Origin: Lentilactobacillus rapi DSM 19907 = JCM 15042
Lineage (GTDB): Bacteria > Bacillota > Bacilli > Lactobacillales > Lactobacillaceae
DNA: 56,255 nucleotides
Direction: 5' to 3'
Assembly: GCF_001436255.1 (NCBI RefSeq)
Contig: NZ_AZEI01000022.1
Coordinates: 63,557 to 119,811, forward strand
Under the pieces are notes generated by a model. That model was not told the origin of the DNA. It searched no databases and saw only the letters and a list, made by a program, of their open reading frames with translations. Positions 9,385 to 54,232 of this stretch are shown here, piece after piece. A program made the translations under genes and the position numbers. How positions within the stretch are numbered: position 1 is the first letter of the stretch; each line of letters starts with the position of its first letter.

Positions 9385-9500
9385 TGAGCGGATCAAAGCG
9401 ATTAGAGATCGGAGTGTAAGTCGCCTCGAACGGAAATTCCGGTTTGGGGAATTTTTGTTCGAGGTGCTTGCATGCAGATCTCTGCTTTGAGGAGCTGTCC
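9385..9500 (+). repeat. Structured dispersed repeat, copy A
   Basis: A 116-bp element that matches 28219-28333 almost end to end (shared blocks TGAGCGGATC, ATCGGA, TAAGTC, GGTGCT, CATGCAGAT and GAGGAGCTGTCC). Helices: TCAAAGC (9393-9399) with GCTTTGA (9484-9490), AGAGATC (9404-9410) with GATCTCT (9477-9483), and an inner hairpin CCTCGAAC (9424-9431) with GTTCGAGG (9457-9464). Copy B differs in each helix but keeps pairing. No clear target duplication was seen here. Lies in the divergent MFS/ABC intergenic region. Confidence 0.8.
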
Positions 9501-9517
9501 TAACTTGAGCAATTCCT

Positions 9518-26002: not shown

Positions 26003-26160
26003 TGGCTAAGACATTAGTCAGCAAACCGTCTATAAATACAACTTAATTGATCATTCTTATATCGACCAAGCTTGCGATAAATAGCTGATCCCAGAATTTA
26101 AGCAAAAACGGCAATGCATCCAAGACTAGAGGATACATTGCCGTTTTCACTTAAATTAGA
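26003..26160. repeat. Gene-end hairpin repeat family, copy 1 (also terminator of the minus-strand ula operon)
   Basis: The leader (ACATTAGTCAGC, TATAAATACAACTT, TTCTTATAT, TTGCGATAAATAGCTGATCC) matches copies 2 and 3. Outer arms TGATCCCAGAATTTAAG and CACTTAAATT flank an inner stem, ACGGCAATG.ATCC with GGAT.CATTGCCGT (about 26108-26144), which has T-runs on both strands. It lies just past the UlaD-like stop. Confidence 0.75.
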
Positions 26161-26169
26161 TTTAAATAG

Positions 26170-26790
26170 TTACTTAACAATATTTAAGAATTGTTTCAAT
26201 TTTTCTTCTGGATCAGGATCGTTGGTGATCGAGCCACCAACGATAATCGTTTCAACAATTCCTTGTTTCTTTAAGTTTGCAGCAGCTTCCAAATCAATCC
26301 CACCTGCTATTGCAATGTGTTTAACTTTTGGATGATTTTGGACAAATGTCGATACCATTGCAGTTGCATCAATGGGAACGCCGAGATCGTTGTTATGGTG
26401 TAACAAGTAGATTGCAGAATTGAATTGATCAATTTTTGCGATTTGTGATTCAGATACATCGGTTAAGTCAATTACCATTCTTTGATGTAATGAGGTTTCA
26501 TTCGAACAAAGCTGAATTGTTTTTGGAGAAGCAGACCCCATTACTGTTAAATAGTCAGCACCAAATTGAAACCCGGACTTAAATTCATACTGCCCTTCAT
26601 CAACAGTCTTAGTGTCATATAGAATCTGACTGGAACTAATCTGTCGAACGATTGGCTGAATATCATTAAATCCAAAATCTTTAATAAGAGAAGTTCCAAA
26701 CTCAATGATATTTGCGAGCCCGTCAAATAACGATATGAATCTCTTGGTATCATCTAAAGATTTTCTGTCTATGGCAACTTGAATTTTCAT
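26170..26790 (-). CDS. Orotidine-decarboxylase-superfamily enzyme, UlaD/HPS-like (206 aa)
   Basis: A TIM barrel of the OMP decarboxylase (HUMPS) superfamily: IQVAIDRKSLDD at strand 1, IIEFGTSLI, the catalytic LYDTKTVDEGQYE segment (Asp-x-Lys-x-x-Asp), and phosphate-binding IAIAGGIDLEAA and TIIVGGSIT. UlaD (3-keto-L-gulonate-6-phosphate decarboxylase) and hexulose-6-phosphate synthase share this layout. Context after UlaG favours UlaD, which would release CO2 and yield L-xylulose 5-phosphate. The active loop reads DTKTVDEG rather than the DAKIADAG of E. coli UlaD, closer to HPS (DTKTMDAG), so specificity is uncertain. Last gene of the minus-strand operon; SD GAAGGTGA, 24 nt after ulaG. Confidence 0.75.
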   Translation of the reverse strand: MKIQVAIDRKSLDDTKRFISLFDGLANIIEFGTSLIKDFGFNDIQPIVRQISSSQILYDTKTVDEGQYEFKSGFQFGADYLTVMGSASPKTIQLCSNETSLHQRMVIDLTDVSESQIAKIDQFNSAIYLLHHNNDLGVPIDATAMVSTFVQNHPKVKHIAIAGGIDLEAAANLKKQGIVETIIVGGSITNDPDPEEKLKQFLNIVK

Positions 26791-27909: not shown

Positions 27910-28194
27910 TTATTTGTCGAGTTCTTCTAATTTTGGATCAAGATGTGCTTTGATATCGTTTTTATCCACAAAGTTTGTCAATACAATGGTTTTGTCTCGA
28001 TCTTCATCCGGAAATCCTTCAAATAGTTCTCTAGTCGTAACATAAATATCAGCAGGAGCGCTTGTAATACTTCCCAAATCTACAGTATCAACATCAATGT
28101 CATCGCGTTTTTCTTCTGATAAAATACTCTCAATGTTCATCTTAGCAATAACGCTTGAACCAACGCCTAAGCCACATACTGCTACAATTTTCAT
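27910..28194 (-). CDS. ulaB: PTS EIIB component, ascorbate type (94 aa)
   Basis: UlaB-like: phospho-cysteine loop MKIVAVCGLGVGSSVIAKMN with Cys at residue 7. ATG 28194 is preceded by SD GGAGG; a farther upstream ATG would place the SD inside the gene. The gene is separated from EIIC by 154 nt because repeat element B is inserted there; without the element and its 9-bp duplication the gap would be about 29 nt. Confidence 0.87.
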   Translation of the reverse strand: MKIVAVCGLGVGSSVIAKMNIESILSEEKRDDIDVDTVDLGSITSAPADIYVTTRELFEGFPDEDRDKTIVLTNFVDKNDIKAHLDPKLEELDK

Positions 28195-28208
28195 AATAAT
28201 TTCCTCCA

Positions 28209-28217
28209 TAAAAGTAA
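28209..28217 (+). repeat. Left 9-bp direct repeat flanking element B
   Basis: TAAAAGTAA, identical to 28334-28342; interpreted as a target-site duplication. Confidence 0.7.
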
Positions 28218-28218
28218 G

Positions 28219-28333
28219 TGAGCGGATCCAAGCGGGAATAATCGGAATATAAGTCTCCTTCTGTGAAAATTTCGGATTGGGTGATTCCCACAGAAGGTGC
28301 TCACATGCAGATTATCGCTTGGAGGAGCTGTCC
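28219..28333 (+). repeat. Structured dispersed repeat, copy B, with target duplication
   Basis: A 115-bp relative of 9385-9500. Helices: TCCAAGCG (28227-28234) with CGCTTGGA (28316-28323), ATAATC (28238-28243) with GATTAT (28310-28315), and inner hairpin CCTTCTGTG (28257-28265) with CACAGAAGG (28289-28297). All three differ from copy A by paired changes. The 9-bp direct repeat TAAAAGTAA on both sides marks insertion. It sits between the EIIC and EIIB genes of a minus-strand operon, ending about 15 nt before the EIIB SD. Confidence 0.85.
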
Positions 28334-28342
28334 TAAAAGTAA
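28334..28342 (+). repeat. Right 9-bp direct repeat flanking element B
   Basis: TAAAAGTAA, identical to 28209-28217. Confidence 0.7.
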
Positions 28343-28348
28343 TTTTCA

Positions 28349-29671
28349 TTAAATAAATGCAAGGATTAATGTTCGTAAGAACTTTAATAGATACATTAAA
28401 GGCATCCAAACGATTGCGTAATCAATGTTCGACCATGTGAGCCCACTTCCGTAAACGGCTCCAGTTAATGGATAGAATAGGATTACGGCTGCAGATGAAA
28501 TGATACCGGTGATTAACCCAGCAGCGATTGCGCCGCGCCATCCACCTGCCTTGTTACCAAATACACCCATGACATTACCATCAAAATACATAATAATTGG
28601 ACTAGGGAAAACAATAACTGGGGAGTGAAATACGATTGTCAAGAAAGTAACCAGAATACAGCCGACAGTTGATCCTAAGAAGCCGAACATACCTCCCATC
28701 GGTGAATACGGAAAGATTGTTGGGGCATCTAAAGCTGGAATTGCACCCGGCAAGAATTTATCTGAAATTCCTTTAAATGCTGGAACAATTGAGCCAATAA
28801 ACATCCGAACACCAGCAAGTAGGACAACGATACCTGCGGTGAAAGTAAATCCTTGGAGAATGAGCCACAGAATCCAATTAACGGCTCCTGCACCAGTCCC
28901 TGCAAGTGATTCAATGCCGGTTTTACCAACTGCAATCCCGATGCCAACGAATATTATAGGCATCAAGAAAAATAATACAATTGTATTGTCTCGGAACATG
29001 GATGCCCACTTTGGAAGCTTCATATTATCGGCATCCTGATTAGGATCACTGCTACCGAACCATTTTCCGATAAAGTGGGCTAGTATCGATCCAACTTGAT
29101 CCATAAAGCCGAGTGTCGAAACGTCATGCATCCACGGACGAGATATCACTCGAGGGATCGCTGGTGAATAGGTGTAGTAAAGTGCATTTAAAATTGTCCC
29201 GACAGTCACTGTCCAGAAACTTCCAGTATGAAGAACAACTGGCAAGGTGACATTCATGAAGGCAGCGTGGTAAAGCATTAAATGTGCTGTTAAGTAAGCA
29301 TTTTTAAAATTCTTACCAGGTGTCAATCGAACGAGTAATAAGTGCAGAAAAAAGGCTAAAAGAAAAGTGATAACAGTATCTTTTGCAATGGTATTAAATC
29401 TTAAGACAACCCCAAACACCGCATCGTTCGTTGGTAAAACACCCCGAACGTGAAGCGTCTCATTTAACTTTGTTACAACGGGTGATAGGGAATTGATTAG
29501 GATTCCGGCACCTGACGCAAGAATTGTGAGACCAATAACAGTCTTAACAGTGCCATCAATAACTTTTGGAAACGACTTTCTTTGGAGCAGCAAACCAAGG
29601 AGAGCAACCAATCCAAGGAAAATAGTTTCATTGCTTAAAATCTGGAAAACAAAAAAATTAAGAACTTTCAT
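28349..29671 (-). CDS. ulaA: PTS EIIC permease, UlaA family (440 aa)
   Basis: A second UlaA-type permease, clearly related to the one at 19420 (LLLQRKSFPKVIDGTVKT, FMDQVGSILAHFIGKWFG, FPYSPMGGMFGFLGS). About ten membrane segments. ATG 29671 is preceded by GGGGGC and overlaps the EIIA gene end by 14 nt, implying translational coupling. With UlaG in the same operon, L-ascorbate is the likely substrate, delivered as ascorbate 6-phosphate. Confidence 0.87.
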   Translation of the reverse strand: MKVLNFFVFQILSNETIFLGLVALLGLLLQRKSFPKVIDGTVKTVIGLTILASGAGILINSLSPVVTKLNETLHVRGVLPTNDAVFGVVLRFNTIAKDTVITFLLAFFLHLLLVRLTPGKNFKNAYLTAHLMLYHAAFMNVTLPVVLHTGSFWTVTVGTILNALYYTYSPAIPRVISRPWMHDVSTLGFMDQVGSILAHFIGKWFGSSDPNQDADNMKLPKWASMFRDNTIVLFFLMPIIFVGIGIAVGKTGIESLAGTGAGAVNWILWLILQGFTFTAGIVVLLAGVRMFIGSIVPAFKGISDKFLPGAIPALDAPTIFPYSPMGGMFGFLGSTVGCILVTFLTIVFHSPVIVFPSPIIMYFDGNVMGVFGNKAGGWRGAIAAGLITGIISSAAVILFYPLTGAVYGSGLTWSNIDYAIVWMPLMYLLKFLRTLILAFI

Positions 29672-30131
29672 GCTGATTGCCCCCGTTAATCTTATTCGCA
29701 ATTAGAACAGCGTCTGCATGGGTTGTTGCCCCTCGTAAAGTATCCAAGTTTTTGCTGTCATTTAGAAATGTAACAATTTTTTGAAGCAGTGACAGGTGAG
29801 CGGTATCACTCGTCGAGGCCAGAATGACAACAAGGTCAACTGGATCGTTGTCTTTATTTCCAAATTTAATGCCATTCTGGAACGTTGTTATCGCAAACGA
29901 TGTTTCTTTGACAGCTTCTGAAGGCCTTGCGTGGCCTAATGCTAACCCTGGAGCTATGACGATATAGGGACCAAGCTTTTTGACTGATTCAATCATGTTG
30001 TTCACGTAAGCATCGGTTATGCGGTTACTATCAACTAAGGGTTTAGAAGCTACTTTGATTGCATCTTCCCAATTGCTTGCAGTTGCATTGAGCTGTATTT
30101 CTTGCGGTGTTATCTCTAAAGTGTCAGACAT
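29658..30131 (-). CDS. ulaC: PTS EIIA component, ascorbate type (157 aa)
   Basis: PTS_EIIA type-2 domain, active histidine in GLALGHARPSEAV (about residue 72), opening ASNWEDAIKVASKPL as in the paralogue at 18587. ATG 30131 is chosen because the SD TGGAGGTGA lies just upstream, inside the alternative longer frame. First gene of the minus-strand ula operon; its promoter carries a cre site. Confidence 0.86.
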   Translation of the reverse strand: MSDTLEITPQEIQLNATASNWEDAIKVASKPLVDSNRITDAYVNNMIESVKKLGPYIVIAPGLALGHARPSEAVKETSFAITTFQNGIKFGNKDNDPVDLVVILASTSDTAHLSLLQKIVTFLNDSKNLDTLRGATTHADAVLIANKINGGNQHESS

Positions 30132-40640: not shown

Positions 40641-40902
40641 CCATTAGTCAGCAAATTGGTTTTACATTAATAAAACTTGCGCCAAACGGCTGGTCCCTGC
40701 CATTTAAGCCAAAAAGTAATGCAAGATATTAAGAAAAGCGTTTATAAATGCAGCTTGGCTTGCCCTTCTTACATTGATAAAACCTGCGACAAACGGCTGA
40801 TCCCTGCCATTTAAGCAAAAAAAGTAATGCATTCCACAAACCAGAATGCATTACTTTTTTCACTTAAATTCTGGGATCAAAACGCCTTTCGTCCCAATCT
40901 CC
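40641..40902. repeat. Gene-end hairpin repeat family, copy 2 with a partial second unit
   Basis: A full unit (about 40735-40902) is preceded by a shortened one (40641-40722) that repeats CATTAGTCAGC, AATAAAACTTGCG, CAAACGGCTG, TCCCTGCCATTTAAG and AAAAAGTAATGCA. In the full unit, AAAAAAGTAATGCATTC (to 40834) pairs with GAATGCATTACTTTTTT (40844-40860) inside arms matching TGATCCC...GGGATCA. It lies between convergent aguA and the metal ATPase gene and provides terminators for both. Confidence 0.8.
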
Positions 40903-54035: not shown

Positions 54036-54232
54036 AAGTGAAAGCGGCTGGGAAATTAGTTGGTAAAGAGTTTATAAGGGTAACTTGGTTTTTTCTTTCT
54101 TATATTGATAAAATTTGCGACAAACGGCTGATCCCGGCCATTTAAGCAAAAAAGTAATGCATTCCAAAACCAGAATGCATTACTTTTTTCACTTAAATTC
54201 TGGGATCAAATCGCCTATTGTTCCAATCTCTG
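54036..54232. repeat. Gene-end hairpin repeat family, copy 3
   Basis: Very close to the full unit of copy 2: TTTATAA, AACTTGG, TTCTTATATTGATAAAA, TTGCGACAAACGGCTGATCC, then AAAAAAGTAATGCATTC paired with GAATGCATTACTTTTTT inside TGATCCC...GGGATCA arms, followed by TCGCC. Lies between convergent YhgE and spx-like genes. Confidence 0.8.

Follow-up and report, generated by a model that had tools for sequence, protein, structure and literature searches.

A 119-bp structured repeat of Lactobacillales forms tandem arrays docked by their 5' ends at Shine-Dalgarno sequences and stop codons

What is the structured element that lies between two genes of a PTS operon in Lentilactobacillus rapi, and how did it come to be there? 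We analyzed a 56,255-nucleotide stretch of L. rapi DSM 19907 (contig NZ_AZEI01000022.1; hereafter, the window), which carries two copies of the element, A and B (Table 1). Copy B lies between the EIIC-like and EIIB-like genes of an ascorbate-type PTS operon on the minus strand; an ascorbate-6-phosphate lactonase gene, above its NCBIfam cut-off, adjoins these two genes. Copy B itself is on the plus strand and is therefore antisense to the operon. The original prediction held that the two copies represent a mobile 115-bp element with a selected fold, inserted with a 9-bp target duplication. Sequence and alignment bear out the conserved blocks that it saw in both copies, and the covariance model lengthens the element to approximately 119 bp. 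Taking out copy B with one of its flanking 9-bp repeats leaves 29 nt between the ulaB start codon and the ulaA stop, as had been calculated, and the empty site anticipated there exists: the ulaA-ulaB gap of one relative (G302; 84% identity over 1256 bases) lacks the element. At the place of copy A, L. dabitei has three units.

Table 1. Positions of the two copies and their surroundings in the window
Feature	Position	Strand	Evidence and remarks
Copy A, full hairpin unit	9385..9503	+	cmsearch 127.3 bits; undocked by the criteria used
ulaB-like EIIB gene, start at 28194	27910..28194	-	NCBIfam 39.7 bits, far below cut-off
Shine-Dalgarno-like GGAGG of ulaB (CCTCC on +), docking site of the copy B 5' end	28203..28207	-	sequence; docking statistics
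A-rich leader ATAAAAGTAAG, from anti-Shine-Dalgarno to copy B; resembles array spacers	28208..28218	+	junction comparison
TAAAAGTAA, first copy	28209..28217		sequence
Copy B, full hairpin unit TGAGC...GTCCTAA	28219..28337	+	cmsearch (model R1) 103.7 bits, E 3e-26 at 28219-28336; alignment
Conserved GTCCTAA(A) at the 3' end, proposed to mimic the docking sequence CTCCTAA	28330..28337	+	consensus, flanks, junctions
TAAAAGTAA, second copy, immediately after GTCC of copy B	28334..28342		sequence; not a general feature of the family
ulaA-like EIIC gene	28349..29701	-	NCBIfam PTS ascorbate IIC 336.6 bits, cut-off 380

The fold of the unit is under selection

By eye, the plus strand of the window forms an imperfect hairpin with two conserved GGA/GCA-type internal loops, a TAAG/CTTA helix, and a conserved apical loop; the outermost helix has just 2-3 bp. 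The original prediction had pointed to paired changes in the helices of the two copies. These are real and general: in an alignment of 61 sense copies, from which the fold itself was derived, 92.2% of cells pair and 30 of 38 pairs change on both sides. The fold was also scored on 71 distinct copies from other genera, in an alignment that was fitted to the model and has one antisense match among its rows, giving 96.0% of cells paired and 32 of 38 pairs changed on both sides. None of 500 shuffled alignments matched either set (on any of five measures for the 61 copies), with the qualification that the shuffles do not preserve relatedness among copies. Slid structures fared far worse, with 41-49% of cells paired for the 61 copies and 36-44% for the 71. 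We excluded a separate 150-row alignment as evidence, as an estimated 40 of its rows are antisense matches of the same units. We note that copy B is atypical as RNA, in that its minus strand, transcribed with the operon, is slightly more stable than its plus strand (-43.4 versus -39.7 kcal/mol); the corresponding values for copy A are -43.2 and -63.3 kcal/mol.

Copy number, arrays, and distribution

The repeat is present in high copy number. BLAST with copy B returned 87 matches in its own genome, and the covariance model R1, built from 61 units, matched all 150 of the own-genome candidates scored (E <= 3.3e-22), for at least 150 copies. Copy numbers are lower bounds throughout, since the candidates scored per genome were up to 12 (family and order surveys) or 150. 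Using nhmmer on the fetched own-genome stretches, we resolved 191 non-overlapping full units, 188 of them at 40 bits or more, at 98 sites: 44 single units, 30 pairs, 13 triples, 7 groups of four, and 4 of five. Thus 54 of the 98 sites are head-to-tail arrays of two to five units, separated by 93 spacers of 2-8 nt (mode 6). The array units examined are full hairpins of a single type, accompanied by some truncated remnants. The consensus unit is 119 nt long and has the ends TGAGC and GTCCTAA. Over 123 sites, the last base ahead of the unit is G in 94% and the next-to-last is A in 96%; most 3' flanks carry TAA, which leaves the exact 3' end uncertain. By crude ORF calling, 4 of 264 sites fall within a called ORF, and hence nearly all are intergenic.

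Arrays appear to grow mainly by acquiring units from elsewhere, because only 7 of 147 array units have their closest relative within their own array (1.6 expected by chance), a count that rules out local tandem duplication as the main source. Some local duplication does occur, as neighboring units are at least 95% alike more often (3.2% of 93 pairs) than units of different arrays (0.3%).

A family-wide survey found matches in 100 of 301 genomes and 21 of 40 genera (E <= 0.001), and an order-wide draw found them in 20 of 295 genomes (E <= 1e-6), eight of which lie outside the family. We examined loci from seven of these eight, and four genomes show neighboring tandem units. Copies in other genera keep the fold and differ in their ends, with CCCGATTCGGC, CACGTTTCGG, and GCGCGTTATAGG in place of GTCCTAA. 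The exact 3' pattern occurs in 73 stretches, nearly all from L. kisonensis, L. dabitei, and five other Lentilactobacillus species; the remainder are two from Pediococcus ethanolidurans and one each from Dyadobacter and Yanshouia, the last two probably chance matches. Plasmids carry the repeat as well. The unit of one other genus (g12) matches 21 plasmid records from Pediococcus, Lacticaseibacillus, and Lactiplantibacillus, and that of another (g20) matches five from Lactiplantibacillus and Lentilactobacillus; carriers include Lacticaseibacillus rhamnosus, L. paracasei, and Pediococcus acidilactici, and we examined seven plasmid places in sequence. BLAST with copy B against plasmids and phages gave no match, nor did the g12 unit against phages, and no viral contig had the exact 3' pattern or encoded a relative of the EIIC.

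We compared the repeat with described families. Rfam (4227 families, gathering score) gave no match for the window and eight other-genus loci, and at E <= 1 three own-genome arrays hit only miRNA models far below threshold. A structured repeat without an Rfam match can exceed a hundred copies in a lactic-acid bacterial genome. In the PMC full-text literature, we found no description of it. The available part of a stem-loop survey (PMC2267715) lists one family for Lactobacillus johnsonii, Lac-1, which at 231 nt and within coding sequence is not the 119-bp repeat. The part available of another survey (PMC2864571) lists RNA motifs of Lactobacillales, among them Lacto-int, which it gives for Lactobacillales and phages; this motif has no Rfam number and so falls outside the Rfam scan, and our phage and viral searches turned up no copy of the present repeat.

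The 5' end docks at translation signals, and units turn over in place

We sorted array starts into two crude classes: (i) SD, with a CCTCC-like word (a few words were allowed) 5-22 nt upstream, i.e., the strand opposite a Shine-Dalgarno sequence; and (ii) STOP, with the stop of an open frame (60 codons or longer) located between -14 and +2 of the unit. At the 89 own-genome sites that remain after setting aside nine of the 98 for a short flank or N, the 5' end has an anti-Shine-Dalgarno word at 44 and an open-frame end at 26, and is docked at one or the other at 66. The 3' end is docked at only 8 of the 89, and random positions 30-200 nt away are docked in 6.9%. The same polarity is seen in a wider set (113 of 143 at the 5' end versus 12 of 143 at the 3' end), which mixes orthologous sites of several species and is limited to arrays with both ends found. 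Neither class accommodates 47 of 200 array starts, copy A among them. Of 57 stop sites, 14 use the TGA of the unit itself as the stop codon. Within one genome, dozens of genes have such hairpins beside their translation signals. The tandem arrays, the polar docking at both kinds of signal, and the wide distribution all go beyond what the original prediction had observed.

Junctions within arrays resemble those at SD sites. The commonest distance from TCC to TGAGC is 10 nt at SD junctions; between array units it is 9 nt (41 of 77 junctions). The leaders at both are A-rich and end in AG, the commonest being TAAAAATAAG at SD sites (10 cases) and TAATACAAG between units (5 cases). From the matching spacing and leaders, GTCCTAA at the 3' end of a unit seems to present the following unit with a docking sequence very like CTCCTAA of the anti-Shine-Dalgarno strand. 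We infer that GTCCTAA mimics the anti-Shine-Dalgarno docking site, an account that leaves out stop-codon sites and those of neither class. Stop-codon sites have no YTCC upstream, and no one sequence motif accounts for both classes.

Several local observations bear on where units sit. A longer 3' tail, TAnTCnATR, is found in 16 of 44 stop-docked and 1 of 72 SD-docked Lentilactobacillus arrays, hinting at two subfamilies with different docking. In a mannose-type PTS operon on L. paracasei plasmids (L274, L275), the element again separates two PTS genes, here IIC and IIB, and points its 5' end at the start of IIC; copy B in the window's ula operon has its 5' end facing the EIIB start. Docking at a tRNA 3' end, suspected by eye at one locus (L286), was discarded, as ARAGORN found no tRNA there.

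Beyond ulaA-ulaB, we looked for empty sites by seeking the genes flanking 18 arrays in four relatives; presence or absence was judged from hand-worked gap lengths and, for part of them, also from sequence, with 18 stretches examined. Both flanks were on one contig for 14 arrays in L. dabitei, of which three lack the array (L016, L027, L173), and for nine in L. kisonensis, where there is no array at L010 and what seems to be a deletion remnant at L018. Relative G303 is empty at L007, L018, L025, and L117, and relative G301 at L025. Judged by gap lengths, most positions are shared with the sister species L. dabitei (11 of the 14 that could be tested). The join is clearest at L010, where the filled site reads CTCCT-ATGAAAAG-(two units)-GTCCT-CAACCC and the empty site CCTCCT-CAAGTT, with neither duplication nor loss. 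At L173, the more distant L. kisonensis has the array and the nearer L. dabitei does not, which reads as a loss. At the L016 stop codon, L. dabitei has what by eye appears to be a second hairpin family in place of the first.

Arrays keep their place between sister species, and their units often differ. At shared sites, the flanking sequence is for the most part 90-97% identical to that of L. dabitei and about 75-90% to that of L. kisonensis. Three orthologous pairs of single copies (L014, L110, L109) agree at 97-99%; at L004, a one-unit site with a remnant behind, the ortholog is just 77% alike. Where seven arrays were paired with their L. dabitei counterparts (L002, L003, L005, L023, L111, L117, L128), the best partner of any unit did not exceed 88%. 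Two plasmid loci have arrays that vary by whole units from record to record (whole-query identities of the compared records 82.9-99.0%). Four L. plantarum plasmid records lack approximately 109 bp, and the one examined had lost a hairpin between short GAGCG repeats; an L. paracasei plasmid locus comes in three forms, with two units and a remnant, with a single unit, or with just the remnant. These recent plasmid differences are best read as losses. Such variable arrays could serve as strain markers.

How the repeat may move, and competing explanations

We consider it about an even bet, at a probability slightly below one half (roughly 0.48), that the repeat is a non-autonomous mobile hairpin of Lactobacillales, 119 bp long and with no gene of its own, that docks with polarity. 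The moving form would be a folded single strand of DNA, or RNA that is copied back; it would be cut by a trans-acting enzyme and joined 3' of a YTCC-type sequence. Such a sequence could come from the anti-Shine-Dalgarno strand (CTCC-T) as well as from the 3' end of the unit itself (GTCC-T), and new units would then be added behind old ones to give head-to-tail arrays. Stop-codon sites would have to obey a second rule, distinct from joining at YTCC. In a stricter version, which we hold only tentatively and think somewhat doubtful, the hairpin targets the translation signal itself (3' of CTCCT) and its GTCCTAA copies that target; each insertion would then make a new target, and arrays would build themselves at gene edges; we know of no bacterial repeat that chooses its target in this way. 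As a way of selecting targets, polar docking at Shine-Dalgarno sequences and stop codons would be new. No mobile enzyme was found for the repeat. A replication-strand bias, which single-strand transposition would favor, was weak in one complete genome (p 0.048) and absent in the other (p 0.36), with the origin assumed at the sequence start; the want of a firm bias counts against such transposition. Further points against the mobile reading are the plasmid and L173 differences that look like losses, the sharing of most positions with L. dabitei, the occasional local duplication, the lack of YTCC upstream of stop-codon sites, and the uncertain 3' end. On the G217 chromosome, the first and last tenths have few matches, with one array each of 66.

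Selection on survivors might instead produce the pattern. If units inserted anywhere between genes, by whatever way of moving, and persisted only where they spared promoter, leader, Shine-Dalgarno sequence, gene, and terminator, the windows left would lie beside Shine-Dalgarno sequences and stop codons, each of which marks an edge of selected sequence. We regard this explanation as unlikely on its own, though a serious contender: it accommodates both the near-absence of sites from ORFs and the lack of a motif common to the two docking classes. It leaves unexplained the polarity of docking, is hard to reconcile with the tight SD spacing, and would not predict that the L010 units join exactly at CTCCT when the empty site goes on to offer about 50 nt of free intergenic sequence.

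The units could also be kept as structured RNA that stabilizes, terminates, or processes transcripts in untranslated regions. The strong covariation would suit such a role, as would the many sites directly after stop codons and the folding of copies A and B as RNA, far better than shuffles on either strand. Five pairs are, moreover, G.T (G.U in RNA) in more than a quarter of copies. In first units, G.T exceeds A.C by 403 to 31 cells at SD-docked sites and by 230 to 39 at stop-docked sites; leaving out the five commonly G.T pairs reduces this to 105 versus 29 and 49 versus 38, so that outside these pairs the preference at stop sites is slight. The neighboring gene is antisense to the element at SD sites and runs in the same direction at stop sites. 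That the folding strand stays constant regardless of gene direction argues for a property of the element rather than of a host transcript, and at SD-docked sites the strand that keeps G.T is antisense to the neighboring gene, contrary to an RNA role. The 49-to-38 ratio at stop sites makes the mobile reading slightly weaker and the RNA alternative slightly stronger. A scan of copy B found nothing resembling a terminator, and its promoter-like sites did not exceed the shuffles; we rejected a promoter or terminator role there. With the lack of an Rfam match also against it, we judge selection as RNA to be quite unlikely.

Less likely still is a REP/REPIN-type element moved by a REP-associated Y1 tyrosine transposase. 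REP, BIME, and REPIN sequences with their RAYT transposases are, as far as the available portions of three papers describe them (PMC3116915, PMC8266576, PMC3733652), likewise non-coding, high-copy, extragenic hairpins that are often clustered, and they too are thought to move as single strands, as we propose here; many of our units likewise lie behind stop codons. TnpAREP cleaves between C and T (PMC8266576, in the part available), and our junctions read CTCC-T and GTCC-T, a likeness in sequence only. By the same portions of these papers, REP/REPIN units are 20-40 bp palindromes with a GTAG or CGTC tag, in contrast to a 119-nt unit with internal loops and untagged ends; REP/BIME units alternate in orientation whereas our arrays run head to tail; and docking at Shine-Dalgarno sequences as well as stop codons also sets the present repeat apart. 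By this analogy, Y1 would be the enzyme to expect. The L. rapi genome has one Y1 gene without an inner stop, and Y1 occurs in 7 of 24 genomes of the genus. Across the 301 family genomes, Y1 is present in 33 of 100 element-positive and 59 of 201 negative genomes (Fisher p 0.60), which speaks against Y1 as the mover and leaves room for a lost or unlike enzyme. Y1 is likewise missing from 19 of the 35 copy-rich genomes (all 12 scored candidates matching), the other 16 having it.

A classical MITE of a DDE insertion sequence with a 9-bp target duplication, as originally predicted, is very improbable: TAAAAGTAA does stand on either side of copy B, but A-rich strings like it are the usual spacers between array units, the outermost helix is only 2-3 bp, and at 121 sites (123 minus two with N) end repeats of at least 6 bp (10 sites; shuffle mean 4.8, maximum 10) or at least 8 bp (3 sites; mean 0.8, maximum 3) do not exceed shuffles. 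What stands of the predicted transposable element is a multi-copy, non-coding, presumably mobile unit with a selected fold; the further copies expected of it are there in number, and the 9-bp duplication that would make it a conventional element is not a feature of its sites in general.

Integron attC sites are sequence-variable, structure-conserved single-strand hairpins in head-to-tail arrays, recombined by the integrase at a GTTRRRY-type box. They are like the present repeat in hairpin length, conserved structure, and array orientation, and differ in having cassettes; we saw none in the arrays examined, which are scattered over about 98 sites. BOX of Streptococcus pneumoniae is likewise a structured, interspersed Gram-positive repeat with a variable number of tandem modules and, in the part of the source available (PMC3049150), a composite boxA-boxB(n)-boxC, as opposed to our array unit, a full hairpin of one type. 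The 119-bp repeat is akin to small structured interspersed repeats, somewhat like REP/BIME and BOX without their defining features (tags, lengths, modular order, and transposase link).

The window also contains a second hairpin family, at 26095-26157, 40741-40900, and 54046-54232. It has a long stem, a loop of TGGTTTTG or similar, flanks ATTTAAG/CTTAAAT, and a further conserved flank of approximately 110 nt. Two of its copies match model R1 at 47 bits, and the family is perhaps a distant relative of the 119-bp repeat. The copies at 26095 and 40741-40900 closely follow the stops of ORFs at 26170 and 40908.
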